In this document: one piece after another, positions 36,308 through 64,000 of the stretch
Position numbering within the stretch: position 1 is the first letter of the stretch
How the letters are laid out: each line of letters opens with the position of its first letter
Source of the DNA: Morinoia aosen
Lineage: Eukaryota; Arthropoda; Malacostraca; Amphipoda; Talitridae
NCBI GenBank assembly: GCA_030386875.1
Contig: CM059560.1
Coordinates: 47,844,757 to 47,908,756, forward strand
Length of the DNA stretch: 64,000 nucleotides
Direction: 5' to 3'
The notes under the pieces: model-generated
Database searches by the model: none
What the model was told of the DNA's origin: nothing
The model's input: only the letters and a program-made list of their open reading frames with translations
Made by a program: the position numbers and the translations under genes

Positions 36308-37779
36308 CTTGGAATAATGGAGTACGACAACGATTATAAGTATGAGTATGGGGTAGAGAAAACACAGTTGGTAATCTAGGAACTACATGTACTGTACGTC
36401 CGTCGAGCACGGCGGCGAGAACAAGAAGGAGCAGCTCGATCGCTCTACAAAGGCGGGTAACACATGAACATAGAAAACGGGACGGAAGCAATTTAATGGG
36501 TGACTGCGACAACTCATATATAATAATAAATATATATACTGAAGTTGGATCTCAACAGATAGATTTCTCTGAAATTTTCACAGTAGGTGTGAAATGATGC
36601 ATAGATCATTTGTTATTTTGACGAAATTTTTGTAGCTGCACTTTTTTTTTTAAATATGATAAAATAGGGGGTTTTGTAAAATCTATCTCCTTCTACAATT
36701 TTGAAGTTACAGAACCTGTACTTCGTTTTTAGATTGCTTATATTTCTATATAACCATAAGCAATAGGGAATTTCGATAACTTCTTTTTGTGGATTTTGGG
36801 AATTAAAAAAAAATTACATTTTTCTAATTTTTTTTCATGTGGTGTAATTTTCAAAATAATAAATTTATCAAAAAATGCTATTGCTTATGGATACACCTTG
36901 CTCAGCCCTCTCGAATGGTATATAAACCATTCTTGTAGCTCTAAAATTGTGGAAGAAGATACATTTGAGAAACCAATTATCAAGTTTCCAGAAAAACGTG
37001 TTTTTTCACAAAAAGAATGTTTTTCTTTTTATCTTTTGAACTACAGGGTTTTCTACAATGAACTATTGAGCGTTTTTAGCTCTTTTCAAGCCCTTTCGAA
37101 TGATATAATTTACATTGCTGTAGCTTTGTAACTCTGAGAAAAAATATACAACAAAAGAGAATAGGTGTAATTCTTGAAAACAATTAATTTTAAATTTTTC
37201 ATTTTTTTTCGACTAAGATACGTTTTTTTGTCAAGTCAACTCCTTTGTTTTATAGCTCTTTTCAAGCCCTTTGGATTGGTGTGCTCGCCATAGCTGTAGC
37301 TATGATACTGCAGCTGTCATCGCGCTATGAATGAAAGCTGGGGTATCATAGATACGGCAGAACAGCTAAATTCTGAAATTGTCGAAATTTCATAAAAAAT
37401 ATTTATTCAGCCTTAGAATGTTTCGTTTGAATAATGGAAGCACTTTGAGTAGCCCATGAACGAACTATATTGCCATTGCCACAGAGAAACACGCTCAATT
37501 GACGCCCAGTAATGAGGGGGGAGGGGTCAAGGTCACGCCACCCCCCATCGCTTTCCCCCCTCTGGTGGGCGCACTATTTGGAGTAGACGAAAACGGAATG
37601 TACCAATGAAAGCGCAAGAAAATCCTCTATAAGATGCATATAAAAACAGAAAATCAACACATATCCTGATTTCTACCCAGACGGTCTCCTTAATGCTACA
37701 GAGGAAGCATAGAAAGAACACCAATTACATTTATGCGTATATTATTTTTAAGAGCAATGAAGTAGGGAGGGCATTAGAG

Positions 37780-40700: not shown

Positions 40701-40790
40701 GGTAATACAAAAATTTGCCATCCTTGAAAAGGATGAAGCTAAACTGATTGCGGTCAAAATCACAAGCAAGTTTCACCCGCAAGAAAGCTT
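37780..40790 (-). mobile_element. BEL/Pao LTR retrotransposon relic (pol), broken
   Basis: The minus strand holds the reverse transcriptase palm (FGFVASPYILNYLLK, KLYVDNLVFTTES), RNase H (VVFCDASASAFGTC), and a long integrase region (HQGVESTVQKLKMDGYLIPR, CIVCKRVNAK, TTGMDVSAHFWML, SDNAKTFVAASD) of BEL/Pao type, ending in a Ser/Glu-rich tail near 37.8 kb. Reverse transcriptase before integrase and the VDN motif are BEL/Pao hallmarks. Several breaks; gag and LTRs are not recognised. It stops abruptly at about 40.79 kb, where a gypsy relic begins on the other strand. Confidence 0.88.
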
Positions 40791-42970
40791 TAAATATGAC
40801 TTTTGAGAGTCACCTAGAAAATTTAAGGGAAGTGTTACACGAATTTCAATGTGCCGGAGTAAAAATAGGCTTAGACAAGTGCAAATTTGCGCAAAAACAA
40901 GTGAAGTACCTAGGATGTTACATCCGTCGTGAGGGACTTATCCCAGACCCCAAGAACGTAGATGCGATGCAGAATTACCCAAAGCCTACCACCGCACGAA
41001 AAATCCGCTCATTCGTCGCTGCACTTAACTTCTATCGGTGGTTTATTCCGCATTTCGCCACAACAGCTGCTCCCCTTAATGCGCTGACCAAGAAGGGACA
41101 AAAATTCAAGTGGAATGAAGAACACGAGCAAGCCTTCTGTAAACTTAAGCAGCTAATGATAGAAGCTCCAGTTCTGAAGAAGCCTTCTCTATATGAGACT
41201 TATTATTTAAGCTGTGATGCATCAAATGAGGGCTCTAGCGCAGTTTTGGCACAAAGATGTAATGGTAAGGAACAACCCATTGGATACTTCAGCAAAAGAT
41301 TCAATGATGCTGAAAAACGTTATTCAATTACTGAACGTGAGGGATTAGCAGTGGTCGCCGCTGTAAATCACTTCTCACCTAATTTGTACGGTAATAAATT
41401 TGTTGTAATTACTGATCACACGGCCCTTAAATATTTGTTCAAAGGTAAAAATACCAAGAACAACAGAATTATGAGGTGGGCACTAACACTCTCACAGTAC
41501 AATTTTGAAGTAATTTATCGGCCAGGAGCTCAGAATGTAGTCCCAGACGCACTGTCAAGGAACATAGCGCAAAACAATGAGGACGATGAAGACAACGGAG
41601 CGCCTAAGACAGTGTTTGTCACGTCGATGCTAGACGAAACACCCAGTGTGCAACAGGCGGAGGTCAGCCTGTAAAAGGAAAATGAGAGAGCAGAACAATT
41701 AAAAGATCCTGTTTGGGGGCCTGTCCTGAATTACATTGAAGGTGACAAATCAGGGGAAGCTCCAAGTCTCGCTCTGAAATCCGAAATCTTCGCCGACGGA
41801 GGCATATTGTATTTCAGGAAAACGCAACGAAAGCCTAACAGAACAAGGCACTTGATAATAATGCCAGACACTCTGAGAGAGTCCGCGATGACGTTGGCGC
41901 ATGACGATGCCATAGGTGCGCACCAAGGGAGGGCTAAAACTTGGAAGCGCACACTGGAATTCGGGTACTGGATAAATATGTCCAAAGACGTAAATGCATT
42001 TGTAGACTCTTGTGCAGTGTCAGAAGAGGAAGATCAATAACCGTGTTTGTGTCAGCATGGGTTCATTCCCAGAAATTGATAAGCCACTGGACAGAGTAGG
42101 AGTTGATTTAATTGAAATGCCAGTTTCGAATGAAGGCCACAAATACATCTTAACTGTAGTCGATCATTTCAGCAGATACGTCGCTGCATTTCCGCTCAGA
42201 AGCAAAACCACAGAGGAAGTAACGCAAGCGTTGACTAAATTTGTTACAACGTACGGCCCTGCAAAAACGCTTGTCTCTGACAGAGGCACGGAATTCACGT
42301 CCAGCATATTCCGAAGTGTGTGCGGGAAATTGAAAATAAAATACACCAACACTTCAGCCTATCATCCACAATCGAATGGAATGACGGAAAGACAAAATCA
42401 AGACATAAAAACCATGATGTCTCACTTGGCAGCGAACGATCAATCCTCGTGGCACCTTTCTGTTCCGTGGACGTGCCTGGCACTTAACACCAGCTACCAG
42501 AGCGTCATTGAAGAAATACCATTCTATTTGTTTTTTGGTAGTGATGCCGACATTCCAATCATTGAATGGCTAAAAAACCCCGCGAGTAGATTACTCTCTC
42601 GGGGAGAACTACGCAACAGAAGTAACTGCACGACTCCACAATGCATTCAAGATTGTTAAAACAAAATCTAAAGCGTCGCACGACAAGTCTGTGCAATTAA
42701 AAGAGCGGGGAGTCAAGAACAACAAAGTTCATGTAGGTGACATTGTTCTGCTTCAGAATTCGACTGGAAGGCCTGAAGCTGACGGCGCATGGCCGACAGG
42801 TTGGATTGGCCCTTATCGAATAATTGAAAAGAGTGAGTTCAACGCAACAATTAAAGCACTTTATAATGAACGTGTAGAGAGAGTGCATCTAGATAGGCTG
42901 AAGGTGGCGTTTCTCAGAGGGGAGGCTTACCCTTACCATGAGGATGACGCGGCTGTGCCAGTGACATGAG
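40790..42970 (+). mobile_element. Ty3/gypsy relic (3' half of pol), broken
   Basis: Plus strand: end of the reverse transcriptase and its connection (HLENLREVLHEFQCAGVKIG, KYLGCYIRREGL), RNase H (LSCDASNEGSSAVLAQ, VITDHTALKYLF), integrase finger region, core (VGVDLIEMPVSNEGHKYIL, SDRGTEFTSS, SAYHPQSNGMTERQN) and C-terminal part (NSTGRPEADGAWPTGWIGPY). The 5' half is missing and there are a few breaks. About 0.4 kb after it (42970-43390) could be the remains of its LTR but no second copy is present to prove it. Confidence 0.87.
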
Positions 42971-44790: not shown

Positions 44791-44794
44791 CCTT

Positions 44795-46378
44795 TTCCAG
44801 ACTTTTTTTTACTTTTTCCAGACTTTTTTTTACTTTTCCAGACTTTTTTTTACTTTTTCCAGACTTTTTTTTCACTTTTTCAAGACTTTTTCAACTTTTT
44901 CCAGACTTTCTCATGACTTTTCCAGATATTTTCCAGATTTTTTCCAGAGTTTTTCCAGATATTTTCCAGACATTTTCCAGACATTTTCCAGACATTTTCC
45001 AGACTTTTTCCAGACTTTTTCCAGACTTTTTCCAGACTTTTTCCAGACTTTTACCAGACGTTTTCCAGACTTTTTCTTCACTTTTTTAGACTTTTCCCAG
45101 ACTTTTTTTTCACTTTTTCCAGTCGTTTTCTAAACTTTTTCTTCACTTTTTCTAGACTTTTTCCAGACTTTTTCCAGACTTTTTCCAGACTTTTTCCAGA
45201 ATTTTTCCAGACTTTTTCCAGACTTTTTCCAGACTTTTTCAAGACTTTTTCCAGACTTTTTCCAGACTTTTTCCAGACTTTTTCCAGACTTTTTCCAGAC
45301 TTTTTCCAGACTTTTCCCAGACTTTTCCCGGACTTTTTCAAGACTTTTTCCAGACTTTTTCCAGACTTTTTCCAGACTTTTTCAGACTTTTTTCAGACTT
45401 TTTTCGAACATTTTTCTGACTTTTTTCAGACTTTTTCCAGACTTTTTCTAGACTTTTTCAAGACTTTTTCCAGACTTTTTCCAGACTTTTTCCAGACTTT
45501 TTCAAGACTTTTTCCAGACTTTTTCCAGACTTTTTCCAGCCTTTTCCCAGACTGTTCCCAGACTTTTTCCAGATTTTTCTTCACTTTTTCCTGACTTTTC
45601 CAGACTTTTCCAAACTTTTTCAGACATGTTCCAGACTTTTTCCAGACTTTCTACGGAGTGGAAAAAAGGTCTTGAAAAAGTAAAAAAAAAGTCTTGAAAA
45701 TGTGAAAAAGGTTGGACGAAGTAAAAAAAAGTCTGGAAAAAGTAATGATAAGTCTGGTAAAAGTGAAAAAAATATGGGATAAGTGATGAAAAGTTTTGGG
45801 AGAATGAGAAAAGTCTAGAGAAAGTCTGGAAAAAGTGAAAAAAGATTGGAGAAAGTAAATAAATGTCTAGGAAAAGTCTGGAAAAAGTCTGGAAAAAGTC
45901 TGGAAAAAGTCTAGAAAAAGTCTAGAAAAAGTTTGGAAAAAGTCTGGAAAAAGTCTGGAACAAGTCTGGAAAAAGTCTCGAAAAAGTCTGGAACAAGTCT
46001 GGAAAAAATCTGGAAAAAATCTGGGAAAAAAAGTTTGGAAAACGCCAGGACTTTTTCCAGACTTTTTCCAGACTTTTTCCAGACTTTTTCCAGACTTTTT
46101 CCAGACTTTTTCCAGACTTTTTCCAGACTTTTTCCAGACTTTTTCCAGACTTTTTCCAGACTTTTTCCAGATTTCATCCAGACTTTTTTTCGGACTTTTT
46201 TCAGACTTTTTTCAGACTTTTTCCAGACTTTTTCCAGACTTTTTCCAGACTTTTTCCAGACTTTTTCCAGACTTTTTCCAGACTTTTTCCAGACTTTTTC
46301 CAGACTTTTTCCAGACTTTTTCCAGACTTTTTCCAGACTTTTTCCAGACTTTCCAGACTTTCCAGACTTTCCAGACTG
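44795..46378. repeat. Satellite array 1, 11-bp unit ACTTTTTCCAG, with two inversions
   Basis: Dozens of copies of ACTTTTTCCAG (plus strand) with variants, reading CTGGAAAAAGT on the minus strand. From about 45655 to 46045 the units run in the opposite orientation, bounded by CTTTCTACGGAGTGGAAAA on the left and TTGGAAAACGCCAGGAC on the right; then they return to the first orientation. Near the right end the unit shortens to 9 bp (ACTTTCCAG). Eleven is not a multiple of three and no frame has a stop, so all frames look open, but this is not evidence of coding. Confidence 0.95.
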
Positions 46379-46483
46379 TTACGATACGGGATGAGGGCGG
46401 GTTTAGGACCCCCCTCCCACACGCTGAGGGAATTCCAACCCCCGTACACATTTTATAGTATTATCCTTCATGCTTGCGTACAC

Positions 46484-46670
46484 CTGCATACCAGACATGG
46501 AGAATAAAAGAATAACCCATATTTACATGAATTTATTTGGAGACACGTGGCTAAATACACAAGGCATTGGAACGAAATGATTTGAAAGGGCACAACTGCG
46601 TTAATGGAAGTATGCACATATCTACCGCCATAAAACTTTAAACACGACATGGTATAAATGTGATGCTTAC
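46484..46670 (-). other. Predicted intron of unit 1
   Basis: GTAAGCATCACATTTATA at the 5' end and a pyrimidine-rich ...TTCTTTTATTCTCC...TATGCAG at the 3' end on the minus strand. Both ends, and the length within a base, are kept in unit 2 (49021-49208). Confidence 0.5.
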
Positions 46671-47600
46671 CGATAATTCAAGTTACCAATACTCCTTCGT
46701 TGACAACAAACTACGCATCCAAAAAATCGCGGGCTCCACAGCAACACAAGCATAATATTTACGAAAATGACGCATCACGATTTAACCTGTAATTGTGACA
46801 AGGTGTCGAATCATATGAAGCGTCGCACCATTCACAACGTGAATTCGATCCTCGACTAAATAAACACAGGAAACCGATTGCCTATAATTTATATGATTTT
46901 GCGCAACACTTTGAAAAGCACTTTTCTGGGTGCTGTTCTACATCTGAATTGAACTTTTATCACCACCTAACAGAGCTCTCACAACCATAAAACACTCGCC
47001 CCTTTGATAAGTGGTTCACTGATAGACATTCACTGCCGATGTGCTGTCGCTCACTGCTGATTTTCTTCGTCATTGCTGAGAATATCTGCTGTTCTGGACT
47101 GATCTCTCGCTGACGCGCTGCCGCGGTGCCTTCCCCGCTCCATCTTCATGCTGCCGGCTTCACAACTCGTGGTCGCAGCCACTCTGGTGCCTGGCTTTCT
47201 TAAGAGTTTCGTTGGCGAGCCACTTCACTGTAGTTTGTGCATTGATCTTCGCATTGTTGGTGGACGAACTTAACTGTTGATATTCGCAACGTTAGTAATT
47301 GCATGGCTCCAAATCTTGACGCTGAAGTTGCCCGTGAGAGCGGTCCCGATGCAGAGATGTCTGAATGCTCCGTCGCTGACGACATTTACGCTTGCCGATT
47401 ACCGCTGCCTCGCTGCTGTGCTACGAATGGCTCCTGACGCACGTCAGTACTTTGAAGTTTGTTGATACACTGGACGCCTCCTCTCGAAACTTCGATGGTT
47501 AACTTTCACTTTAGATGTTGGATTTTGGCTGCTCATGTCGAAAGTGTGCCGGCGGCGCTCTTCACTTGCAGTCAACACCGGACTTGGTATAATGCCGGGT

Positions 47601-47622
47601 AATACCGGCGTCTGCCGGTATT
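47601..47622. promoter_or_regulatory. Perfect 9-bp hairpin in the unit 1 leader
   Basis: AATACCGGC, loop GTCT, then GCCGGTATT, set between further CCGG-containing arms, about 60-80 bases after the predicted start site of unit 1. The same hairpin is present in inverted unit 3 (63940-63961). It might act as an RNA structure in the 5' leader; function unknown. Confidence 0.6.
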
Positions 47623-47704
47623 CCGGCTGCAAAACCCCTCCTTGATTATGCGTCTCTCTCGTAGCGTCACCGAGCGGAAAATCCCTCGCGAGGCTTCATC
47701 CCAA

Positions 47705-47895
47705 CCCCTTATAAGTATTTCCCTTTCTTCCTTCGAGATTGATCTCGAACATTCCATTCTACAGAGGCCGTATCTGCATCCTGATTGGCGGGATCCTTGT
47801 TTGTTCTGACGTCTGGGACTCCCATTGGTGTGTGCTCAGACACACCTTCTCGCGTGATCGCTAGGCAAGCGTTCATTGGTGTAGCACAATTGGTT
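47705..47895 (-). promoter_or_regulatory. Heat-shock-type promoter of unit 1 (HSE + TATA + CCAAT boxes)
   Basis: Reading the minus strand: CCAAT boxes (plus ATTGG at about 47888, 47874, 47824 and 47784), then an array of heat-shock pentamers GAA-n2-TTC-n2-GAt-n2-aTC-n2-GAA (47732-47759) at exact 5-bp alternation, then the TATA-like ACTTATAAGG (47709-47715) about 20 bases further. Such an order is typical of HSF-driven hsp70-class promoters. A GGTGTGT/ACACACC hairpin lies at about 47826-47845. Confidence 0.6.
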
Positions 47896-48142
47896 CTCTG
47901 CTAACGTCTTCCCCTTTCCCCCTCGAAGCAGCCCCGCTTGCCGCCTGCGGCACCGGCCTAACCGTCAAATTCCAATCTTTGCTGTAACATCTCTCACAAA
48001 ATAAAGCACAGCATCTTTGAACCATAAAGTGAAGTATTTTCCCAAGAACATTTTATGAGCCTGTTTCCCAAAAAAAAATATTTTACGAGAGTATTTCTCA
48101 AAAATTCCCAAAAACATTTTATGAGAGTAGTATTTCCTCACA
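47896..48142. repeat. Spacer with about 37-bp tandem units before array 2
   Basis: From about 48028 the motif TTCCCAA...ACATTTTATGAGAG..TATTT is repeated about three times. The same spacer occurs in inverse at 63205-63335, and a relative (AAAGTATTTCCCAAATTTCC repeats) at 61728-61905. Confidence 0.7.
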
Positions 48143-48910
48143 AGACTTTCCAGACTTTCCAGACTTTTTCCAGACGTTTTCCAGACTTTCCAGACTTTCC
48201 AGACTTTCCAGACTTTCCAGACTTTCCAGACTTTCCATACTTTCCATACTTTCCAGACTTTCCAGACTTTCCAGACTTTACAGACTTTTTCCAGACCTTT
48301 TATTCACTTTTTCCAGACTTTTTCCACTTTTTTTCACTTATTCCAGACTTTTCTAGACTTTTTTTTCACTTTCTCCAGACTTTTTCCAGACTTTTTTCAC
48401 TTTTTTCAGACTTTTTCAAGACTTTTTTTCACTTTTTCCAGACTTTTTACAGACTTTTCTTCACTTTTTTCAGACTTTTTCCAGATTTTTTTCACTTTTT
48501 TCAGTTTTTTCCAGACTTTTTTGTTCACTTTTTCCAGACGTTTCCAAAACTTTTTTTTTCACTTTTTCCAGACTTTTTCCAGACTTTTTTCAGACTTTTT
48601 CCAGACTTTTTCCAGACTTTTTCCAGACATCTTCCAGACTTTTTCCAGACTTTTTCCAGACTTTTTCCAGACTTTTTCCAGACTTTTTCCAGACTTTTTC
48701 CAGACTTTTTCCAGACTTTTTCCAGACTTTTTCCAGACTTTTTCCAGACTTTCCAGACTTTCCAGACTTTCCAGACTTTCCAGACTTTCCAGATTTTCCA
48801 GACTTTCCAGACTTTCCAGACTTTTTCCAGACTTTTTCCAGACTTTTTTTCACTTTTTCAGACTTTTTCCACTTTTTCTCACTTATTCCAGACTTTTTCT
48901 AGACTTTTTT
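48143..48910. repeat. Satellite array 2 (11-bp and 9-bp units)
   Basis: Starts and ends with stretches of the 9-bp form ACTTTCCAG; the centre is the 11-bp form ACTTTTTCCAG, plus TTTTTTCACTTTTT variants. All units have one orientation. Flanked on the right by the sequence that also follows array 1 (CGATACGG..GATGAGGG.GGGTTTAGGACCCCCC). Confidence 0.95.
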
Positions 48911-51159
48911 TTTGTTGCGATACGGTGATGAGGGTGGGTTTAGGACCCCCCTTGCCCATACGCTGAGGGAATTGCAACCCCCACACATGTTATAGTATTA
49001 TCCTTTATGCTTGCGTACACCTGCATACCAGACATGGAGAATAAAAGGATTGAAGATTTACATGAGTTTATTTGGGGAAAACACGTGGATGAATCACACA
49101 AGGCATTGAACGAAATAATTTGAAAGGGCACAACTGCATTAATGAAAGGCACACACATTCTACCGTTATAAGACTCTAAACGTGACACGATATAAATGTG
49201 ATGCTTACCGAGAATTCAAGTTACCAATACTCCATCGTAGACAACAAATAACGCATCCACAAAACCGCAGGTTCCACAGCAACATAAAACACAATATTAG
49301 CAAGAATAACATATCACGATTCAACCTGGAGCTGCAACACGGTGTCGAATTATATGAAGCTCCGCACAATTCACAACGTGAATTCGATCCTCGACTGAAT
49401 AAACACAGGAAACCGATTGCCTACAAATTATATGATTTTGCGCGACACTTTGAAAAGCACTTTTCTGCCTGCTGATCTACATCTGAAATTGAACTTTTAT
49501 CACCACCTAACAGAGTTCTCACAACCATAACACTCGCCCTTTTGATGATACGTAATTCACTGATAGATATTCACTGCCGATGTGCTGTCGCTCACTGCTG
49601 ATTTTCCTCGTCATTGCTGAGACTATCTCTGTTCTGGACTGCTCTCTCGCTGACGCGCTGCCTCGGTGCATTCCCCGCTCCACCTTGACGCTGAAGTTCT
49701 GGTGCCGGGAATTACTTAAGAGTTTCATTGTGCGCCAATTCACTGCAGTTTTGTGCGTTGATCTTCGCATTTTGGGGAACGAACTGGACTGTTGATACTC
49801 GCAATGTTGGCAAATGCGTGGCTCCATATCTTGACGCTAAAGTTGCTTGTGAGTTCGACCCCGATGCAAAGATACTTGAATGTGTATGAGTCGGGTTTTT
49901 CTTCCGCACTCTCTATGTTCAAGAGTTCGTTAGTTCTGTTTCTTTCTGACAGATTCCTCCGGTATGACTTTACGTTACAGGTACGAGAAAGGTAGCGCTG
50001 ATAGCTGCCACCACGAGGCGTGTAGATAGCCTCGACTAAAATTAAAGGATTGGTTACGTTAACTCAGATTGTCAATTTGGTAGCGATCGCTTATGGCCGG
50101 CACGTGTTTCTTATGCCCCTTTGAGAGAGATGAGAGAGAGGAAATAGATGAGGCCCAGGTTTTTTTTTATTTATTGATGGGAAGGCAAGTACGGATGGCA
50201 AGAGCACACGAGGTAAAAACAACATATAAATATCGGGGGACAATACGACCATCACCTCACGATCTTCCTTCGATCGATTTCTCACGACAACAGACTGTGT
50301 ACAAACAGCCAACACACGAGCCAAGGAATGGGTATCCACCGAAAGTATGAGCCAAGGTAAGCGTATAGCAAACGCTTGAAATCATGCGCCCTCAAAACAA
50401 GTCAATGGATTTTCGTTGATCGTGCCACGCTCTACTCGAACACAGTCTCGAAATTCAACTATTGAAGATATGGGCTTTTACTATCAACTCAAATTCCTAA
50501 GTATCAAAACCGGCTGTTCGTCGTAAACCTCAACTGCACTCTAGAACGTCCGTTCCCGACCACGGCTCTCTACACCGTTCTCAACGACGGCTACCCGCGA
50601 AGTGTCCTCTGCCCGTCCGACATAACTCTCGCTTGGACAGCGCTCCCCCCTGCCCGAAGGGGGGGGGTGGTCGCCACACGAGCTGGTAACAAGGGGTGGC
50701 TAGGGTTCTGAGCCGCTCCTCCCCTACACAACCGGGGGTAGGGCTGGGGGGGGGGAGGGGTCGGGTCTCATGGCCTCAGCCCTCCCTCTAGCCATGGCTA
50801 ATTCAACGACTGATCCCACGCTCGGCTCCCCAGCTACACGATCGGGACAGGCACATTGTTTTTATATTAAGGTCTGGATATTTTACTATCCCTGACCGAC
50901 GCTAATCAGCCCCAGCGCTTCTCAGCGCTGTGTAACCGCGGCAGCCCAAGCGCACCAACTTTATCGAATTTAATATGACCAGTGTTCCGTATGAGAACGT
51001 CCAGATCGTGCATTTCCCAAACCCAAGCATGACCGCGGGCATTAATTTTTATGACCCGTGTATTCAGAGATCTCGTCTTAACATCAATTATATAATTTCG
51101 CTCGGCAACGCCAACGACAAAGATGGGATGAATCTGGCTTCATACCCTGACTTTATACA

Positions 51160-54116
51160 CCCTTTCCCCACTTGCGCAAAAAGAAATTATGTAATAATTT
51201 CTTTTTCTATGTCTTGGCCTCAGTGCATTTCTTACCCGACTGGCGAACACTGATACAACCTGACATCAATTCACAATGCAACACAATACAACATGACATC
51301 AATTACAATATCACAAAAAAACTAGGACGGCGACCACAACTCGCTCGCCTATGCTTCGGCCATTTTCACATAATATTGGCCCCCTTCGGGACTGGAGAGG
51401 CGAGCTCTTCCGTCCCGAGATCTTCGGGTTCTGTTCCAGGGGAAATCCTTCCTAGGCTTGTATGATAATGAGGAATTTCTTCCCCCGCAGTGTCTCTTTC
51501 CAGAGATAGTAGGGGAAAACCGAAACCGAGGAGATTCGCTTGTTCGCGGTCCTGGCCTCGATCTCTCCGTCATTTCGGGGCACAACTAAATGCTGCAGCA
51601 AGTTGCTGAGAGTCGCCTCGGTCAGGCGTTCGTCCGGCTTCGGGACGAAGTGGACAATGAGCGCTCGACCCTCCAGGGTCGCGGCCGCCCGTCCCCAGTC
51701 CGTCTCGGCCGAGACGGTCGCCAGACTCCCGTCTGGTAGCCACAGCGACGTCTCGTAGTTGCGCGCTGCGACGTATGTCCCGAGCTGGCGCACCACCTCG
51801 CTCGGCCTCCGTCTCCGCCCTCGATGCATGTACGTCGCCGTTTCCTACGGCACACGGTCGGGCATTAATTTTGTTACATGGGTTAGATATCAATATAGAG
51901 CCTATTTTAAAAAATTTTCCTTTCTTCGCCTCAAAATGAGTGCGTATGTTACATGAGGAATAATATATGATTTTGGGATTCATGAACCTAACAAGTCCTA
52001 GCAGACTTGAATGACTAAGTCCCCACACTCCTGCACACTATACAGCACATACTCCTGCACACGTTACCGCACATACTCTGACAACACACACACCTCCTGT
52101 TCATTTGTCTTTCACTCGTGGTGCAGGTCCTTATGCTTAAATGATGAGAATTGTTCCTACTTCCTATTCTTTCCGTGTCAGCTGACTGTTTTTTTTTTTT
52201 TGTTACTGAATGGCATTTGCTAATCTCTCGTGAGAAGCAAGCATCAATTTCGTATGGGTGCAATACGGAGGCGTCCCTCGTTTGCCTATATATTTTATGT
52301 ACCAGTCGCACACGACTTATCTTTTTAATCTTCAAATCTCATGGTATCGATAACCGCTGCGATGCCTCAAGCATTGCGCACATGCCTCTGGATGGCCTAT
52401 CGATCCCTCTCAGTCATGCTTCTCGTAATCTCCCTTATCCGCTCGTCATCAGACCAGATATTCATAACACCCTCCACAGTTCACGCACGTGTTTCCTACG
52501 CGCAGGGGTATTCCCGATCTTACCATTTCCGAATGCCTCTCCGTCTTTCTTACGCGACCGCAGTTCCGGTCCGTCTCCGTTGGAGGCCGCTGTGGTGCTG
52601 GTTTAGCACCGCGCACACGCCCGCACCTCGCTCGCTGTCGCCTTCCTGAAAATCTTCAAAATAACCTTAGTACATTTATCATTAAATATTTCAGCTCTAG
52701 CGTCGGTTTGGTGCTGTTCACGCTCTGATTTCTCAGCACAGGAGCCGTCCATCTCTGTTATCTATATTCTTTTTGCTCATCTCTATTTATTTTGTTCTCC
52801 CATCTATCTCGTAATTAGCATCGCACACGAATCGCTGTGCGCTTCTCTCTGCTCAGACTGCCTTCTCTAATCTCCGGCGTGTCGCCGCTCATATTACATG
52901 AGTTCCAGCGTGGAACTCATCTCAAGTTTTATGGTCCATCTGTGGCTGTATTGTCTCGCGGCTCACGCCTCGAGTCTCCACCACGCGAGTGCGTGTCCAA
53001 CTTGCCTTTCCACCCTAAGCTACGTTATTCTTAAAGACCGTAATGTTAAAGCTTATGCTAGGTCCGTAATGGACATCTTTAATTTAATCTGCTGTCTCGC
53101 TAAGCATTCTACCCAACTCTCAGGGTTCTGCTATACGCGATCTTATTATCGGCTCCACTCTGCTCATGACAGGCTCAGGTTTCTCTTTTTAAAACGTCAT
53201 TTAGACGCAATAATAAAAAAATTTAATTTCTTAAATTTTCTTCCCCTCCGACGATCCAAGAAAAATTCCTTCACGGGGAATTTTTCATGCTAACAAACAA
53301 TTACGAGAAGGATATATCCCTTTCCCATCCAAGTTGCTGACTCTTCAAACCTACACCTGAAAGGCAATGGTTTATTAGTGCTTATAACTAGTCATTTCTC
53401 AGGCTACTCAAAAAAAAACTTCGTCCTCTCAGTTGTAACCTACTAGTTATGAGAGGACTAAAGAGCCGTACCCACTACTGGCCGTATTATGTGAAGGAAC
53501 CTCTGCTGCGGCTGTGCTATACTTATATTTTAATACTGTCTAATTATATCTCTGCCTAGACGGCTAGTTTCCTTCGAAATCCCTCTTCATTCCTTATACA
53601 TCTCAAACAATTGACCAGCAATCAAATTTCTATTTCGATGTGAAGTCATTTTATCTAAGTTTTATTCTCGTCATTCAAAAATGCGCAGCCAGCACGATAC
53701 ACTTTTCCTAGTGCGTTATCATAATTTGTATGCCACGTCTCTACTCGTATTTCCCAGGCCCGGACTGAGTTCCTTTATGCCTCTTTCGATTTTATGACTC
53801 TCATCCTGTGCCTGTTCTGAGCACAGTCGCTCGTGCTGGCTGGTAGCATTTCTACAAGTTACTTGCCTAGCAGTCGACTACTCAGAAATTTTCCTGCCAA
53901 CCTAGTTGTTGCTAAGCTATTCTGTAAAGGAATTTGATTAGTGCTTATCTACTACTTATTTTGCTAGGTTTAATCTGAAAAGAAAATTAGATTAGTCAGC
54001 CTATCTACCTACTTATTTACTAGGTTAATCTGAAAGAGAACATGAAATTAGTAGGCTTATCTCCTCTCTACTTGTTACATAGTAGTTTTGCTCATGTTAT
54101 CTTCTCCTCTACTCCT
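51160..54116. other. Unassigned 3' region of the long-LTR gypsy
   Basis: About 3 kb between the end of pol and the 3' LTR. Near the LTR a GC-rich minus-strand open frame of 125 codons (51452-51829; contains YETSLWLPDGSLATVSAE) stands out against AT-rich surroundings; I do not recognise it. The middle is CT-rich with short frames only. No envelope gene is recognisable. Confidence 0.5.
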
Positions 54117-57100
54117 CTACTCTTCTACCGGACCGGCGGATCTTAGAGCGTAAGGACGTCTAGCTGCCGGGGTGGGTAGGGGTGAGGGTGCTTCAGGCCT
54201 TGTTACATAGATGTCGTCATCGCTGCTTTCCGAATCGCTATCGTCGTGACGTACTTCGGTGACGTGCTCGACGCTCCTCCCATTCCTTCGAGGACGCTCG
54301 TCTTGTATTACTATTGTCTCCTCTGGTTGAAATGACGCGGGCTTAAGTCTATTTCTGTGGACCGTTATCTCGTGCCGGCGGCCGTGGACTTGTCGTATTA
54401 CGACGTTCATCGGTGTTGGAAGGGCCTGAATTCTGTACGGGCCTAACCAATTAGGTCGGAATTTACCCATCGCCTTGTTTCTTCCTGCTGTATTCCGTAG
54501 GAATACGCAGTCGCCGACTCTAAGTTCTCTATCTCTCACGCACTGATATCTCACATTTTTGTCATGTGCGTTTTGGCTTGCTGACATCGCGTTTTCGAAC
54601 GCAATTTGCAATCTGGCAAAAGCGGCGTGAGGAAAGTTCTCCTCCACAGCATAGTTTAGTATCCTGGGCTGCAGAATATCAGACAGTGGCAAAGGAGCGT
54701 CGCGTCCATGGAACAAGAAGTACGGTGTGTTGTCTACCGAGGCATGATACGAACAGTTTAGGGCGAGCGTGGCGAAAGGTAGCTGCTCGTCCCATGATGT
54801 GAGATCCTTCTCTACTGTTGTGGCCAACGTTGTCTTTATCAACTTGTTGAAGGCTTCCGTCATACCGTTACTGGCTGGGTGGAAGGCCGTGGTGAAATGC
54901 AACTTGGACTTTAAAATGCGGCACATTTCTTGGAAATTTTGGGCGGTAAACTCCGTACCTCGATCTGACACGATGTGTTCCGGACAGCCATACCTGCATA
55001 CATAGTCCATGAATGCTCGCGCCACTGTTTCGCTCTTCTTATCGCGCAATGGGTACGCCTGCACGTGTCTCGAGAAATGGCACACGATCGTCAGAATATA
55101 TCTATGTCCGGCGTGTGACTGTGTCAGCTCTCCAATGAGATCAATCCCCACCCTTTCTAATGGTCGTGAGACTGGCGGTAATTCGCCTATTTTTGCTTTG
55201 AGGCCCCCGTGCGGACTTCGTTTCTGACACGTCGTGCAATTTTTCACGTGCTCTTGCACGTGTCGTGCCATATTTGGCCAAAAGAATAATTCTCTAGCAC
55301 GGTGGAGGGTCTTTTTTGCCCCAAAATGTCCGGAAATTCGCGTATCGTGCGACATTATTAACGCGGGCTTTATTAGAGATTCAGGAATCACTGCACGTTT
55401 GTAAATGTCTCCACTGTCTTTAACTTCCAGGTAGAAAAGGCAATTTTTGTCCAGCACGAAATCCTTATACTGGCTCGGATCTGTCACCATTTCGCCCTTT
55501 CCTTCCAATGCGTTGATGACCTTGGCCCAGTGCTGTGCTTTGCGCTGCTCCATACTTACCTTTTCCGCACAGAAAACTTCGTACGGGTCCAGCGCTTCCG
55601 TCACGGTCGGGCGGACGGCTGCCACTCCGCGTGAGAGCGTGTCTGGAATCACATTCTCCTTGCCGGGTCTATACGAAATTTCATATTCGAACTGTGACAG
55701 TAGCACTGCCCAGCGGGCGATCCGTGGAACGGTAGCTTTGTATTGGAACAAATATCGCAGCGGCTGATGGTCTGTTAGGATCTGAAACTTCCGACCGTAG
55801 AGGTATCGAGCAAAATGGCGGACGTTTTCCACAATAGCTAAGCTTCTCTTTCGGTTGTAGAGTACCGGGTCTCCGCCGGTGTAAATTTCCGTGAATAGTA
55901 TGCTATCGGGTGATCCAGGCCGTCCTTTTCTTGCGTCAGTACTCCTCCCAGAGCGACATCACTGGCGTCGGTATGCAGCCTGAACGGTCGCTCGAAATCT
56001 GGGTAACCCAACACCGGCGCTTCAGCTAGGGCCGATTTGAGCGCGTCGAATGCGGCCTGATGTTCGTTCGTCCACGCAAACTTGGCACACTTCTTAGTCA
56101 ATGCCGTCAAAAGTGCGACTCGCTCCGAGAAATTTGGTATGTGTCTTCGATAGTAGCCTGCCATTCCCAAAATTCTTCGTACATCTTTCGGTTTTTTCGG
56201 TGGTAACAACTCGCGAATGGCCGTGATTTTCCTTTGGTCGACTTGAATTCCGTCCTTCGAGACAACATGACCTAAATACTCGATGGAGGGTTTTGCAAAG
56301 CTGCACTTTTTCAGAGACATTTTTAAACCTGACTTCTGAAAGAGAGCGAGAACTTCTTCCAAATGAGCGATGTGATCCTCAAACGTCTTCGAAAATACCA
56401 CTACGTCGTCTATGAAAACGTAGCTCGTTTTTCCAATCACTGGCTCTAACACTCGATTGACCAAACGCTGGAATGTGGCCGGAGCTGTAGTCAATCCGAA
56501 TGGCATCCTCTTGAATCGGTACTGAGCCGACTCAGTAGCAAATGCTGTCTTGTCGCGGTCTGCTTCCGCGACAGGAATCTGCCAGTAGCCTGACTTCAAG
56601 TCTATTGCTGAGAAGTAGCATGCGCCTCCGAGGGACTCCAAAATTTGCTCGATGCGTGGCATTGGATATTTGTCTGCGAGCGTGACTTCATTAATTCGTC
56701 GAAAATCAACACAGAACCTATGCGTGCCGTCCTTCTTTTTGATGAGGAGCACTGGGGATGCCCACGCGCTTGCTGATGGCTCAATTACATCCATTTTTAA
56801 CATATTCTGCACTTGTTCTTCGATTGCTGCGCGTGTTGCTTGGGGTAGCGGCCACTGTTTCGTAGCAATCGGCGCCGCGTTCCTGATGTCAATTCGATGT
56901 GGGAGCAAGTCACATCGTCCTAAATCTTGCTCATGCTGAGAAATGGCTGGCGCATACTTACCGATGAGCGCTAACAAACTCTCACGCTGCTGCGTGTGCA
57001 GATGCTCTAGGCTTGGTACTTCCGCCTCGGGTAGCTCGTCGGTTATACCATACTCACCATCGTCACTGCTCACTGTTGGTAGCACCGCCGCGACCTCAGA

Positions 57101-58530
57101 CTGTCGCATACTTACCCTTTTTCTTTGTCTGATCAAATTGATCGACTCTCCGGCATACTTACCGTCCTTAAATGCATACGAATGACCGTTCACGATCACT
57201 CTACTATCATATCTACCGGTCATGTCCAGCGTCACCTTACCTATGCGCTGGAGTAAATCGAGCCCTACTAGTATGTCTCCTGGATAATTTCCGACCTGCG
57301 CTACAACCGTGTCGTGCACATACGTTTTACCTCCTATCTTAATGTTCAGCGCGATTCTGCCCCGCACATCTATTTCTGCGCCACTTACTGTACTTAACTT
57401 TAGCTTGGCCGTCTTTATTCTTACTGTACCTGATCCTGCCGACACAATTTGTTCAGCCGTTTCCGGCCTTATTAGACAGCACACCGATCCGGAGTCCAGG
57501 AATGCTTCGCAGTCTTGTTCATTCACTTTTATTTTTATGATCGGCTTTGTCTCGTGTGCATCGGCAGGCGGGGCTAGTTTTTTATATTAGGCGGGCCTTG
57601 TGCATATCGCCACGGTGTGTTGTTATCCCTGTTGAAACTCCGATGGGCTGCGTGGTTCGGGCCTTGTGCCTCGCCTAACTGTCGGTTCGGCTGGGCTGGG
57701 TTTTGTGACCGCCACTGTGCCCTACATTGTCTGGCCATATGGCCGGCTTGGCCACAGTTGAAGCAGTTTATGGTTCTTCGCTGTACGTTCTGGGCAAATG
57801 TATTTTGTCTCGGAATCACCGCTGGGTTGCGACACTCTCGAGAAAAATGGCCTACTTGGTTGCACGACCAGCACCTAGGTGGTGGCCGGGGTGGGGCGGC
57901 TTCTACTGCATCTATCGTGCAGATCGGCCGGCGTGGTTTCTCGTCCTCCAGCATCCTTTCGCATTTCTGTGCCATCTTGACACAATCTGCGAGCCGTTCT
58001 GGTTCGTATGTTGCCATTGTCTTCTTCAATGCCGGGTCGAGACCATTGATAAACACGCTCGCCAAGAGCTTGTCGCGAGATGCTGTTTTTTGCAGCTCCA
58101 CGATAACATGCGCCAAGGCAGCCGAGGCGGTCTCCAGTCGCGAAGCAAACTCTTCGATTGTGCCCCGGTTCATTTTTATTGCAGCCAGTTCCATATGTGC
58201 ATCCGTCAGCGAAATGCTTTTAAGGAAACGATCCTCAAGGCGTTTGGTCAGCTCCGTCAGATCGCATTCTTCGAGCTCGGGGTTTGAATCCAGGAAGTTT
58301 TCTGCTGTGTCGGTGCAGAGATATCTGATGACGTCAGCGCTTCGGGCGTCTGACCAGTTTTCTAGGAGTGCCCTTTTTTTCACTGTGTTGAGGAACTTCA
58401 CCACGTTCGACTTTCCGTCGAATTTTGGCAGTTTGCCAAGCACTGGCCCGCTTGCCGCTGTTTGATCGGTTCCTGCGTCCTGTTTATTTGCAGCAGTACT
58501 TCCCGAGTTGCTATCTTCGTTCTTTCCCAT

Positions 58531-59700
58531 TTTGCAGCTTGAACTCCGCGATGATCAGCACAAAAATTATTTTATATATTTTTTTCCAAGTCTATCTATT
58601 TGCAGTTGCAACTCACACGCACTACACTGAACCTCTAATTTTTACGATAAATACTGGTATCCAAGCATAAACACACAAAAAAAAATTTTTCGGGTGTATC
58701 CAAGAGAGGAAATATGAAGGCCCCACTGGCAAAAATTACCGAAATGCGGACTCTCGTGCGTAGGGCATCAAATCATAAGTCAGGAGGGAATCTCCTAACC
58801 AAATACCGTTAATTAAACGAGTCCTATACCAGCACAACTTTGCGTAACTATTTACGTTAATCTTTCCCTCAATTTGCAATGTTATTCTTGCATAATCATC
58901 TCACTGATCCTAGTTCAGCCCACGACACACAAAAATATTATATATTTTCTTTGGACAACCGAATAACTGTTATGTGGAGTGTTGATCTCTTCCCCAAACA
59001 CCGCTAAGGAGCGACCGACAAAATGCGGACTTGCTACGTATTATTTCTTTCCTAGGGAACACACGAACATTTAAATGGATGTTTCTACAGACGAATCGTT
59101 GGTTTACCCCCAATAACAGAGTAGAATGCCACAATAATATCTATTTGCAAACTAGATTTGCACGAACAATCCCTAAATTTGCAATCCTGCTCACAACACA
59201 ATATTCACCCAATATGTACCTAATTTACAACACAGAGAGCACGAGAATCAAATGTCTCTTCCGAAGACATAACAAAAAAAAAATACTATTCTTAAAGAAT
59301 CTTCGATGCTTCTACTTCTCAGGTGCAGCAATCCCTACCAAATTGAAATGCACTTTCTTTTGGCTTTCTCGCGCTCAAGGACTGGCTGTAAGGTTTTATG
59401 GCTGGGTCCGCTTCTAATCTCACAGAAAATGACACTTCCTGGCTGCACCGCGATATGCGCTATATCTGTTAGGGGCTACACTCACATGACACACATCGAA
59501 CAGAGAACAATAAATAAGTAAGAATTTGCAGTTGAAGACATACACAGAAATGAAATGAAATGGTGGTTACTTACAGTTTTTTGTTGCTCTTGGACGCCGT
59601 TGCCCGCTTGCAGCTGTTGGACTGGTTGCTTCTTCTGTCTTGCTAACACAATATTCTCTCTCTCTCTCTCAGATTGGGAAGCTTACACCGCTGGCTCCAC
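58531..59700 (-). other. 5' leader of the long-LTR gypsy
   Basis: About 1.2 kb between the 5' LTR and gag, AT-rich, without a convincing open frame. A CT-dinucleotide run lies at about 59655-59680. Confidence 0.5.
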
Positions 59701-61239
59701 TGTATGAGTCGGGTTTTTCTTCCGCACTCTCTATGTTCAAGAGTTCGTTAGTTCTGTTTCTTTCTGACAGATTCCTCCGGTATGACTTTACGTTACAGGT
59801 ACGAGAAAGGTAGCGCTGATAGCTGCCACCACGAGGCGTGTAGATAGCCTCGACTAAAATTAAAGGATTGGTTACGTTAACTCAGATTGTCAATTTGGTA
59901 GCGATGGCTTATGGCCGGCACGTGTTTCTTATGCCCCTTTGAGAGAGATGAGAGAGAGGATATAGATGAGGCCCAGGTTTTTTTTTATTTATTGATGGGA
60001 AGGCAAGTACGGATGGCAAGAGCACACGAGGTAAAAACAACATATAAATATCGGGGGACAATACGACCATCACCTCACGATCTTCCTTCGATCGATTTCT
60101 CACGACAACAGACTGTGTACAAACAGCCAACACACGAGCCAAGGAATGGGTAACCACCGAAAGTATGAGCCAAGGTAAGCGTATAGCAAACGCTTGAAAT
60201 CATGCGCCCTCAAAACAAGTCAATGGATTTTCGTTGATCGTGCCACGCTCTACTCGAACACAGTCTCGAAATTCAACTATTGAAGATATGGGCTTTTACT
60301 ATCAACTCAAATTCCTAAGTATCAAAACCGGCTGTTCGTCGTAAACCTCAACTGCACTCTAGAACGTCCGTTCCCGACCACGGCTCTCTACACCGTTCTC
60401 AACGACGGCTACCCGCGAAGTGTCCTCTGCCCGTCCGACATAACTCTCGCTTGGACAGCGCTCCCCCCTGCCCGAAGGGGGGGGTGGTCGCCACACGAGC
60501 TGGTAACAAGGGGTGGCTAGGGTTCTGAGCCGCTCCTCCCCTACACAACCGGGGGTACGGCTGGGGGGGGGAGGGGTCGGGTCTCATGGCCTCAGCCCTC
60601 CCTCTAGCCATGGCTAATTCAACGACTGATCCCACGCTCGGCTCCCCAGCTACACGATCGGGACAGGCACATTGTTTTTATATTAAGGTCTGGATATTTT
60701 ACTATCCCTGACCGACGCTAATCAGCCCCAGCGCTTCTCAGCGCTGTGTAACCGCGGCAGCCCAAGCGCACCAACTTTATCGAATTTAATATGACCAGTG
60801 TTCCGTATGAGAACGTCCAGATCGTGCATTTCCCAAACCCAAGCATGACCGCGGGCATTACTTTTTATGACCCGTGTATTCAGAGATCTCGTCTTAACAT
60901 CAATTATATAATTTCGCTCGGCAACGCCAACGACAAAGATGGGATGAATCTGGCTTCATACCCTGACTTTATACAAATGCTCTCGGTTGAATCTCCGACG
61001 TGCTTACACATGACGATCACCGATGCGAGGCTGGTTTACTTCGATCAGGTTTCTTTTGTGAGACGGTGTTCACCGGTTGCCGACGTCCAACGTTGTTTCT
61101 TGCACTTCGAATTATTAACTTTCAAATTGCAGTTTGGTAGAAGGCAAGCCGGCGATTGCCGACCTGCTGCGTAATGCAACCTCAGCCCTCGTGCGTGGTG
61201 CTCTCTCGTGCGCTCAAAAATCCTCCTCTAATGTACTTG

Positions 61240-61450
61240 TTCGCCGCTTATATACTCTCGCTTGTTTTCTTTTCCAGACTCTTCTCGAACCTTCCCAAAC
61301 ATTTTGAGCTTCTTCCAAGCAAAGATTAGGTGTTTCCCTTAGGATTGGTGGAAATCTTGCCTGCTTCGGGTTGCCGAAATGTAATTGGTGCGTTCTCTGC
61401 CACACCCATGCGCCTGATTCGTTCCAGAGCGCTGATTGGCCGGCGGGATG
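61240..61450 (-). promoter_or_regulatory. Heat-shock-type promoter of unit 2 (HSE + TATA + CCAAT)
   Basis: On the minus strand: CCAAT boxes (plus ATTGG at about 61345, 61384 and 61435), a perfect three-part heat-shock element GAA-gg-TTC-ga-GAA (61282-61294), then TATATAAG (61247-61254) about 30 bases downstream. It lies at the position equivalent to the unit 1 promoter, although the surrounding sequence has diverged, so the arrangement is kept more strongly than the sequence. Confidence 0.62.
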
Positions 61451-61727
61451 TGTTCCCCTTCGAAGCTGCCTCGTCCGGGCGTTCCCACGCAACGCATGTG
61501 TGTTGTGTGCTTGTGTTGTGTGTGTCTTGTGTTGTGTTGCCTAAATGTGTTTTGTGTGTTTATGTGTACGCCTGCGCCAGCTCTCTCGTCGAACGCTACC
61601 CACTTGAGCTCGACATATTTATAGCCAGACTCATGTCGAAACCTGAGAACAACGCCGTTCTTGTAGAGTTCTGCGGTTACAACATCCTGTCCACTGTCCC
61701 TGGCTCAACAAGATATTGTATTTCCCC
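61451..61727. other. GT-rich segment upstream of the unit 2 promoter
   Basis: 61498-61570 is a TTGTGTGTGT-rich stretch. A CA-rich stretch occurs at the like position upstream of inverted unit 3 (about 63550-63620). No gene recognised. Confidence 0.5.
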
Positions 61728-61905
61728 AAGTAAAGTATTTTGAAGTGAAGTCTTTCCTCAAATAAAGTATTTCCCAAATTTCCCCGAGTAAAGTATTTCC
61801 CAACAAAGGTGAATTATCTCCTGAAATAAGGTATTTCCCAAATTTTCATACTTCTTCGAATAAAGTATTTCCCAAATTTCCCCGAGTGAAGTATTTCCCC
61901 ACATT
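61728..61905. repeat. AAAGTATTTCCC tandem units
   Basis: About six degenerate copies of AATAAAGTATTTCCCAAATT with a period near 24-36 bases, placed between unit 2 and array 3, the same relative place as the spacer at 48028-48142. Confidence 0.75.
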
Positions 61906-63205
61906 TTTCACTTTTTCCAGACTTTTTCCAGACTTTTCTCCACTTTTTTCAGACTTTTTCCAGATTTTTTTTCCACTTTTTTCAGACTTTTTCCAGACTT
62001 TTTTCGCTTTTTTCAGACTTCCTCCACTTTTTTTCACTTTTTTCATTTTTTTCCAGACTTTTTTGTTCACTTTTTCCAGACTTTTCCAAAACTTTTTTTT
62101 CACTTTTTCCAGACTTTTTCCAGACTTTTTCCAGACTTTTTCCAGAATTTTTCCAGACATCTTCCAGACTTTTTCCAGACTTTTTCCAGAATTTTTTTTA
62201 CTTTTTTCAGACTTTTTCCACTTTTTTTTACTTTTTCCACACGTTTTCTAAACTTTTTTCACTTTTTCTAGACTTTTTCTAGACTTTTTTCAGACTTTTT
62301 CTAAACTTTTTCCAGACTTTTTCCAGACTTTTTGTAGACTTTTTCCAGACTTTTATCAGACTTTTTCTTCACTATTTTTAGATTTTTTCCAGACTTTTTT
62401 TTCACTTTTTCCAGACGTTTTCTAAACTTTTTCTTCACTTTTTCTAGACTTTTTCCAGACTTTTTACAGCCTATTCCTTAACTTTTTCCAGACTTTTTCC
62501 AGATTTTCTCTGCACTTTTTCCAGACTTTTCCAGACTTTTCCAAACTTTTTCAGATTGTTCCAGACTTTATCCAGACTTTCTACGGAGTAGAAAAAAGGT
62601 CTTGAAAAAGTAAAAAAAGGCTTGAAAATGTAAAAAAGGCTGGACGAAGTGAAAAAAAGTCTGGAAAAAGTAATGATAAGTCTGGTAAAAGAGAAAAAAG
62701 TATGGGATGAGTGATGAAAAGTTTTGGGAGAATGAGAAAAGTCTAGAAAAAGTCTGGAAAAAATGAAAAAAGATTGGAAAAAGTGAAAAAATGTTTAGTA
62801 AAAGTCTGGAAAAAGTCTAATAAAAAGTCTGGAAAAAGTCTAGGAAAAGTCTGGAAAAAGTGATGAATAACAGATTGAAGAAAGTGGAAAAAGTCTGGAA
62901 AAAGTCTAAAAAAGTCTAGAAAAGTCTGGAAAAAGTTTGAAAAAAGTCTGGAAAAAGTCTGGAAAAGGCTGAAAAAAATCTAGAAACAATCTGGGAAAAA
63001 AAAGTTTGGAAAACGTCTGGAAAAAGTAAAAAAAAGTGCAAAAAGTGAAAAAAAAGTCTGGAAAAGTCTGGAAAAAGTGAAAAAAAAAGTCTTGAAAAAG
63101 TCTGGAAAAAGTGAAAAAAGACTGGAAAAAGTCTAGAAAAAGTGAAAAAAAGTTTGGAAAAAGTCAGGAAAAAGTGAAAAAAAGTCTGGAAAAAGTGAAA
63201 ATGTG
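61902..63205. repeat. Satellite array 3, 11-bp unit, with one inversion at about 62580
   Basis: ACTTTTTCCAG units to about 62575, then CTTTCTACGGAGTAGAAAA, then CTGGAAAAAGT units to about 63205. The junction and the following 150 bases (GGTCTTGAAAAAGT, GTAATGATAAGTCTGGTAAA, GATGAAAAGTTTTGGGAGAA) are the same as at the first inversion of array 1, so the inversion was duplicated with the array. Confidence 0.95.
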
Positions 63206-63880
63206 AGGAAATACTACTCTCATAAAATGTATAATATGTTTTTGGGAAATTTTCGAGAAATACTCGTAAAATATATTTTTTTGGGAAACATGCTCGTAAA
63301 ATGTTTTTTGGGAAAATACTTCACTTCATGAAAATGTCAAAACCGTTATCACTGGTATTCTTGAGCGTGAGAATGTGGGCCAAAGTTTACCCGTGTGTTT
63401 TAGCGATATCTCAAGTGCGAGCTCGACACAAGAAAAGCTGAGCTGGAGAAACGTGTGTATAATATTTCACGGCCTCAAGAGCCCAACATTGATAAATGCC
63501 AACCTTGCGACCAGCACTTCACCAGACTGAGAGCGCAGGCATCGTGAACGACTCAAACACACAACACACATCGAAGCACACACACACACACACACAAAAC
63601 AAGCGCACACATCGCACACAGGGCGAGACTTCGGAGGGCAAGAGGCGGACGTGACGTAGGGACAGAGTCCCGCACGACCTGAGCCAATCAACGCTTGCCT
63701 AGCGATCACGCGAGAAGGTGTGTCTGAGCACACACCAATGGGAGTCCCAGACGTCAGAACAAACAAGCATCCCGCTAATCAGGATGCAGATACGGCCTCT
63801 GTAGAATGAAATGTTCGAGATCAATCTCGAAGGAAGAAAGGGAAATACTTATAAGGGGTGGGATGAAGCCTCGTGAGGGA
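63206..63880 (+). promoter_or_regulatory. Heat-shock-type promoter of inverted unit 3
   Basis: Inverse copy of 47.7-48.14 kb. On the plus strand: CCAAT at about 63683 and 63734, heat-shock pentamers (63804-63833, TTC-ga-GAT-ca-ATC-tc-GAA intact, the first GAA changed to AAA), TATA-like CTTATAAGG (63849-63855), predicted start near 63880. A CA-repeat run lies at 63575-63600. Confidence 0.55.
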
Positions 63881-64000
63881 TTTTCCACTCAGTGACGCTA
63901 CGAGAGAGACGCATAATCAAGGAGGGTTTTTGCAGCCGGAATACCGGCAGACGCCGGTATTACCCGGCATTATACCAAGTCCGGTGTTGACTGCAAGTGA
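63880..64000 (+). ncRNA. Unit 3: start of a third, inverted satellite RNA gene (cut by window end)
   Basis: Inverse of 47560-47680, including the AATACCGGC/GCCGGTATT hairpin (63940-63961). It reads away from array 3 toward the right edge, so its own satellite tail, if present, lies beyond the window. Confidence 0.35.

Follow-up and report, generated by a model that had tools for sequence, protein, structure and literature searches.

Solo long terminal repeats with a probable heat-shock-type promoter, from a dispersed LARD-like family, inserted in a satellite of a talitrid amphipod

Heat-responsive long terminal repeats (LTRs) have, as far as the literature surveyed here is concerned, been best worked out in plants. 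ONSEN (ATCOPIA78) and other heat-responsive COPIA elements of the Brassicaceae carry evolutionarily kept clusters of nGAAn motifs in their LTR promoters, and for ONSEN both binding of the heat-shock factor (HSF) HSFA2 and induction by heat have been demonstrated (excerpts of PMC3907296 and PMC5059998). According to an excerpt of PMC5059998, a functional element was absent from all 16 ONSEN fragments or solo LTRs of A. thaliana. The Cryptococcus retrotransposons TCN12 and TCN3, with putative heat-shock elements (HSEs) in the LTR, were mobilized at 37 C (PMC12810828, in extract), and HSF-1 occupancy has been demonstrated for HSE-bearing Helitrons of Caenorhabditis (PMC6927752, in extract). Parts of PMC9032817 connect human satellite III and hsr-omega with heat-shock induction or HSF1 and cite heat-induced retrotransposition in Drosophila. 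No arthropod LTR with HSEs was found among the matches listed for insects, amphipods and crustaceans, as judged by title and start of the abstract and with subscription papers outside the scope. The 64,000-nucleotide stretch of DNA analysed here (the window; its positions are prefixed by w, and fetched genomic loci are numbered L0xx) had been read, in a first-pass annotation, as insect DNA with three heat-inducible units of promoter, leader, intron and satellite. Its content is probably better described as solo LTRs of a dispersed family resembling large retrotransposon derivatives (LARDs), with an HSF-type promoter in the U3 region, inserted into an 11-bp satellite.

The window contained three blocks of 1.77–1.98 kb, each flanked by a 4-bp target duplication (GTCT for LTR A, AAAA for LTR B, and AAAA for the third copy; Table 1). 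In comparison with copies fetched from elsewhere in the genome, homology to LTR A showed sharp edges at w46377 and w48142. CCAAT boxes, heat-shock pentamers and a TATA box stood in promoter order at w47.6-47.9k and w61.2-61.5k on the minus strand and at w63.56-63.9k on the plus strand, which confirmed the first-pass annotation at all three places; TATA box and heat-shock array pointed leftwards in the w47.7k and w61.3k copies and rightwards in the w63.8k copy. That promoter, intron and satellite make up one repeated unit, in contrast, was not confirmed. Since insertion of a Gypsy-type retrotransposon had split LTR B, the promoter at w61.2-61.5k and the leader at w48.9-49.9k are parts of one and the same LTR. 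Homology to the leader (w48910-49882) ended at the start of a Gypsy LTR, and the two LTRs of the inserted element (w49883-51159 and w59701-60975) were 99.45% identical. This element, which is younger than LTR B, was flanked by an AATG target duplication and had minus-strand open reading frames (ORFs) with reverse transcriptase (RT), RNase H and integrase domains. Satellite resumed beyond the end of the third copy at L032:1984. That the three blocks are LTRs is close to certain, and all three are solo. Two further LTRs, C and D, were located to the right of the window; a target duplication was sought for both and found for neither.

Dispersal of the family was analysed with a probe of 401 bp taken from the first leader, which yielded 41 rows that represented the window's own place, 39 other places and one 46-bp piece. 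These places, the best 40 of 2,466 first-look candidates scored, were distributed over 21 of the 29 contigs. Twenty of the 39 other places were fetched, with 10 kb each, and both ends of the LTR were present in 17 of them; L020, L022 and L024 lacked an end and were excluded. Termini of the form TG..CA were found in 14 of these 17 copies (L013 begins with CG, and L015 and L018 finish with TA), with the exact terminal octamers TGTGAGGA..TCGCAACA in 11 of them. Nine of the 17 were solo LTRs with an exact 4-bp target duplication, one showed a near match (TAAT/TAAG), and seven abutted a shared internal sequence, at one of its ends or at both. Except at this adjoining internal sequence, flanks differed between copies. 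Genome-wide, the 31-nt pattern of the putative 5' splice site of A and B (at most 2 mismatches) occurred at 859 places (443 forward and 416 reverse), while its reversed control occurred at none. The 25-nt lineage-A HSE (at most 1 mismatch) occurred at 227 places (132 + 95; control, 0). The 2,466 candidates of the leader probe, like the 2,236 of a second probe derived from LTR B (probe B), were loose first-look matches. The family thus numbers hundreds of copies, perhaps more.

All three window LTRs had satellite on both sides. In contrast, none of the 250 bins examined in each of the 20 other fetched copies contained satellite, so that 20 out of 20 were free of it. Together with the target duplications, this result dissolved the annotated unit of promoter, leader, intron and satellite, by the very observation that the first-pass annotation had named as its refutation: the promoter blocks are dispersed over the genome, belong to an unrelated transposon and, in the copies fetched, lack the satellite. 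On the sharp LTR edges and the 20 satellite-free copies, a satellite long non-coding RNA (lncRNA) unit was likewise rejected. A foldback-type element with satellite arms was rejected on the grounds that the cores had LTR ends and duplications and that satellite was absent from the 20 other copies. The arrangement indicates that the satellite is the insertion site, older than the LTRs and no component of their transcription unit.

The 11-bp arrays themselves were present as annotated, and the right-hand satellite extended past the window to about L032:7000. Between w44793 and that point, four LTRs (A, B, the third copy and C) shared a few kb of satellite, which looks like a local excess. Arrays at w45650-45760 and w62580-62690 flipped orientation, with a switch sequence common to both (CTACGGAGTRGAAAAAAGGTCTTG), pointing to an old centre that may have been duplicated along with the satellite array. 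Satellite variants in a 10-bp register scored 13/15 as HSEs at w45587, w62518 and L032:3230.

The U3 promoter was compared in an LTR alignment of 25 rows, 22 of which included a TATA-anchored block; the incomplete copies L020, L022 and L024 were without it, and in L020 the HSE was present in a separate piece. Five-pentamer scores, out of 15, were 13 for lineage A (in 18 of 19 rows), 14 for B, 13 for C and 14 for D. B and D had a perfect triplet of adjacent pentamers; the triplets of A and C each deviated by one base. The element was kept in place, its start preceding TATAAG by 42 bp in A and C and by 43 bp in B and D. When the 70 bp upstream of TATA were dinucleotide-shuffled, the observed score was reached in 0 (A), 1 (B), 0 (C) and 0 (D) of 2000 shuffles. 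Shuffling of whole LTRs (for C and D, of 1.3-1.4 kb extracts) reached it in 2, 0, 1 and 0 of 200 for A to D. In a background of 258,865 non-LTR positions of the fetched DNA, in which overlapping loci were partly counted twice, 13/15 was scored four times, three of them in satellite, and 14/15 never. The five-pentamer element thus exceeded chance and upheld the annotated heat-shock-type promoter, with better support than the annotation itself could offer; by themselves, three- and four-pentamer matches carried no information on A or the third copy. Comparison of the lineages A to D showed invariance at 12 of the 15 key positions and at 1 of the 10 free ones (Fisher p=0.0009). Within the 19 copies of lineage A, changes at one key and two free positions were too few to be informative. 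Solo copies kept the promoter sequence.

Paired LTRs of the family enclosed internal sequences. In L028, an LTR was followed by an internal region of approximately 4.2 kb and by part of a second LTR, the two LTRs being 99.1% identical over 447 bp. Probe B detected seven same-strand LTR pairs 5.3-7.1 kb apart and one pair 14 kb apart, among the best 40 of 2,236 candidates. The internal region of B type in L034 (4.9 kb) resembled that of A type at both termini and patchily elsewhere. A C14 element contained two LTRs of the family, separated by approximately 12 kb in which another element was nested. The latter (L029:2973 to L030:3723) had direct repeats of approximately 1,284 bp that were 99.9% identical, as well as a long open frame on the minus strand with a match to a Ty3-type protease just at the cut-off. 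L028, L021 and L034 had 14, 12 and 10 ORFs of at least 70 amino acids, respectively, with a maximum length of 140 amino acids. A Pfam scan of 19 of these 36 ORFs gave no match over the cut-off, the best sub-threshold E value being 0.0055. LARDs are defined by LTRs around a non-coding internal region of at least about 4 kb. The term occurs in PMC3286476, which deals with Culex quinquefasciatus. With LTRs of approximately 1.65-2 kb and an internal region of approximately 4-5 kb without recognisable genes, the amphipod family is, as judged from its structure, LARD-like and non-autonomous.

At the junctions proposed in the first-pass annotation, GT-AG stretches of 187 nt (LTR A) and 188 nt (LTR B) were indeed present. 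The 5' site GTAAG was intact in 23 of the 25 rows (exceptions, L028 and D) and the 3' CAG in all 25. A poly(A) signal, AATAAA, sat within the putative intron, ahead of the satellite, and was undamaged in all but two of the 25 copies aligned. Splicing of the genomic RNA ahead of reverse transcription should leave LTRs that lack the intron. An intron-less 31-nt junction (at most 2 mismatches) was found at 0 forward and 0 reverse places genome-wide, beside 859 unspliced 5' sites, which makes splicing of the replicating RNA unlikely. Loss of the intron by retrocopying was also considered as evidence of splicing and rejected: a 120-nt joined-exon query gave half-matches only, among the best 40 of 1,929 candidates. 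As the lack of intron-less copies bears on replicating RNA, it would argue nothing about splicing of other transcripts. In a 37-nt block that spans the 3' site of the putative intron (LTR A 1636-1672; w46471-46507, minus strand; TTATTCTCC..TATGCAGGTGTACGCAAGCA), each of the six pairs of lineages showed 92-100% identity. Compared with the other lineages, D reached 46-49% identity within the intron body; immediately upstream of this block the figure was 66-79%, and downstream of it 76-79%. The block could represent a 3' splice site, a downstream element of the poly(A) signal or something else.

We propose that the window LTRs are solo copies of a dispersed LARD-like family with an HSF-type promoter in U3, and that they inserted into a talitrid satellite. 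Copies would have inserted independently into the older 11-bp array, after which recombination between LTRs would have left solo LTRs. Stress-activated HSF trimers would bind the U3 element and cause transcription of LARD RNA, which the proteins of an autonomous partner would reverse-transcribe and integrate in trans; ONSEN employs its own proteins for these steps. Solo LTRs embedded in satellite could yield some satellite read-through RNA as a by-product. Both mobilization in trans and recombination as the origin of the solo LTRs are steps that we infer. The HSF part of the proposal appears likely. Since confidence in the whole cannot exceed that in this part, and identity of the HSE-TATA block as such was not raised, the combined proposal is graded as probable and no higher. 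A more far-reaching version, for which we would give slightly less than an even chance, describes a non-autonomous LTR family driven by heat shock, in which successive lineages turned over most of U3 while key bases of the HSF array were kept 42-43 bp from TATA. Amplification in heat would then have sown hundreds of HSF-responsive promoters through a 2-Gb genome, some of them in satellite.

Several observations weigh against this proposal. Binding of HSF to these LTRs and their induction by heat are deduced from sequence alone. The element falls short of a full score in lineage A (13/15) and further still in the third window copy (12/15), and LTR C had a second 13/15 match outside the promoter. 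Of 300 shuffles, fractions of 0.45 (A) and 0.47 (third copy) equalled the three-pentamer match; for four pentamers these fractions were 0.14 and 0.19, respectively. The corresponding fractions for LTR B were 0.027 and 0.013. Identity over the whole HSE-TATA block was 54-81%, little above the 45-66% of upstream U3, and the case therefore rests on the key positions. The lineages were also mosaic, A and C being alike upstream and B and D at TATA, and for this reason the four are not fully independent witnesses. A TGG-type tRNA primer site was absent after the 5' LTR, where the internal region starts with GGAGAAATATTAATTG or similar, and the purine tract before the 3' LTR was impure (GGGGCGAAGCGGGTAT). 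Some retroelements prime by other means than a TGG-type tRNA site. No autonomous partner turned up, although no search aimed at one was made.

A rival explanation is an ordinary LTR retrotransposon without any heat response, in which the GAA/TTC runs of U3 serve another factor or none. The sequence-based nature of the HSF assignment, the frequency of three- and four-pentamer matches in shuffled LTRs of A and the third copy and the unraised block identity all agree with such an element. The five-pentamer score, the 42-43 bp distance to TATA and the bias towards key positions across four lineages do not, and we consider this explanation unlikely. Somewhat less unlikely, and compatible with the favoured proposal, is a role of the solo LTRs as by-product stress promoters, which would cause satellite read-through in the window and recruit genes elsewhere. 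This idea is consistent with the 227 places that have the lineage-A element and with retention of promoter sequence in solo copies, and the HSE-bearing Helitrons of Caenorhabditis offer a precedent (PMC6927752, in extract); on the other hand, the AATAAA left intact in 23 of 25 copies should end most transcripts. Genes for heat-inducible satellite lncRNAs, with promoter, leader, intron and satellite tail in the manner of hsr-omega or human satellite III, are very improbable. Although these parts do follow one another in that order in the window and the HSEs are genuine, satellite occurred near 0 of 20 other copies, the 4-bp target duplications lie within satellite, and the poly(A) signal of the LTR precedes it.

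The host was identified from a COX1 gene on contig C29 (invertebrate mitochondrial code), which, among the best 120 of 7,998 matches, was 98% identical to that of Platorchestia sp. AKP-2018, followed by Haustorioides (93%) and by Eurythenes, Gammarus and Hyalella (92%). Platorchestia belongs to the Talitridae (Amphipoda), and the host is, on this marker sequence, a talitrid amphipod rather than the insect that had been assumed. Talitrids of the upper shore are exposed to strong heat. Contig C26 had COX1 copies with TGA codons, likely nuclear copies, and contig C28 had two such; several COX1 genes without TGA were seen on C27, which may include bacterial or unplaced contigs. To the left of the satellite tract, w10506-42969 was dense in transposons (Table 1), including an integrase with DUF5641, a combination known from BEL/Pao elements. 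A search with the LINE protein did not reveal the identity of the host. An Rfam scan of the window at gathering thresholds gave no match.

Table 1. Features of the window and of the adjoining loci L032 and L033 (positions are those of the window unless a locus is given).
Feature	Position	Strand	Remarks
LTR copy A, solo, 1766 bp	46377..48142	-	TGTGAGG...CGTAACA; inside satellite; target duplication GTCT on both sides
Five-pentamer HSE and TATA of LTR A	47706..47756	-	HSE at w47731-47755
Putative 187-nt GT-AG intron in LTR A	46484..46670	-	Contains AATAAA
LTR copy B, 3' part	48913..49882	-	Contains a putative intron of 188 nt at 49021-49208
LTR copy B, 5' part	60976..61903	-	TATA; HSE as overlapping matches at w61271-61305
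Gypsy-type retrotransposon nested in LTR B	49883..60975	-	
Third LTR copy, solo	63202..64000	+	Truncated by window end; approximately 1.2 kb more, to L032:1984
LTR C, fourth, diverged	L032:3558-5305	-	Same satellite tract, further right
LTR D, fifth	L033:2687-4215		Beyond LTR C
11-bp satellite	44793..46370		Tandem Repeats Finder; orientation switches near 45650 and 46040
11-bp satellite	48147..48909		Tandem Repeats Finder; separates LTR A from LTR B
11-bp satellite	61910..63196		Tandem Repeats Finder; orientation switch near 62585
Mariner-type transposase	10506-11573		
Long interspersed nuclear element (LINE)	19707-23123		
Gypsy-type RT and integrase	26425-30438		
Copia-type element	32384-36382		
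Integrase with DUF5641	37795-39849		
Further RNase H piece	40748-41674		

The main lead to emerge from this locus is a well-kept HSF-type site in an LTR promoter. Nested insertion into a satellite can mimic a composite lncRNA gene, and the resemblance to hsr-omega and satellite III goes no further than a claimed link to heat shock or HSF1 (for these two RNAs, as given in the extracted source) and tandem repeats nearby: in the amphipod, the repeats are an insertion site outside the transcription unit, and the elements are dispersed and mobile. If our proposal is correct, the family would provide an animal test of whether stress-coupled transposition persists over evolution, and of whether solo LTRs draw genes or satellites into the heat-shock response.

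With LARDs, the amphipod family shares LTRs around a long gene-less internal region and dispersed copies; it differs in the heat-shock-type promoter of its LTRs, which measure 1.65-2 kb, and in that no TGG-type primer-binding site was seen. Like the Helitrons of Caenorhabditis, its copies spread HSEs in an animal genome, and like TCN12 and TCN3 it has putative HSEs in its LTRs. The Helitrons are DNA transposons with HSF-1 occupancy and TCN12 and TCN3 are fungal elements whose mobilization was observed, whereas the amphipod element, an LTR retrotransposon, is known solely through its sequence, a difference that also applies to the comparison with ONSEN. The latter has, as does the amphipod family, at least three adjacent nGAAn/nTTCn pentamers in its LTR promoter. 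ONSEN is a plant Ty1/copia element and its 16 fragments or solo LTRs in A. thaliana were without a functional element, whereas the amphipod family is LARD-like without recognisable genes and its solo copies keep the sequence of the element. If induced by heat, the amphipod LTRs would work as those of ONSEN do, an analogy of promoter function that does not imply membership of Ty1/copia.

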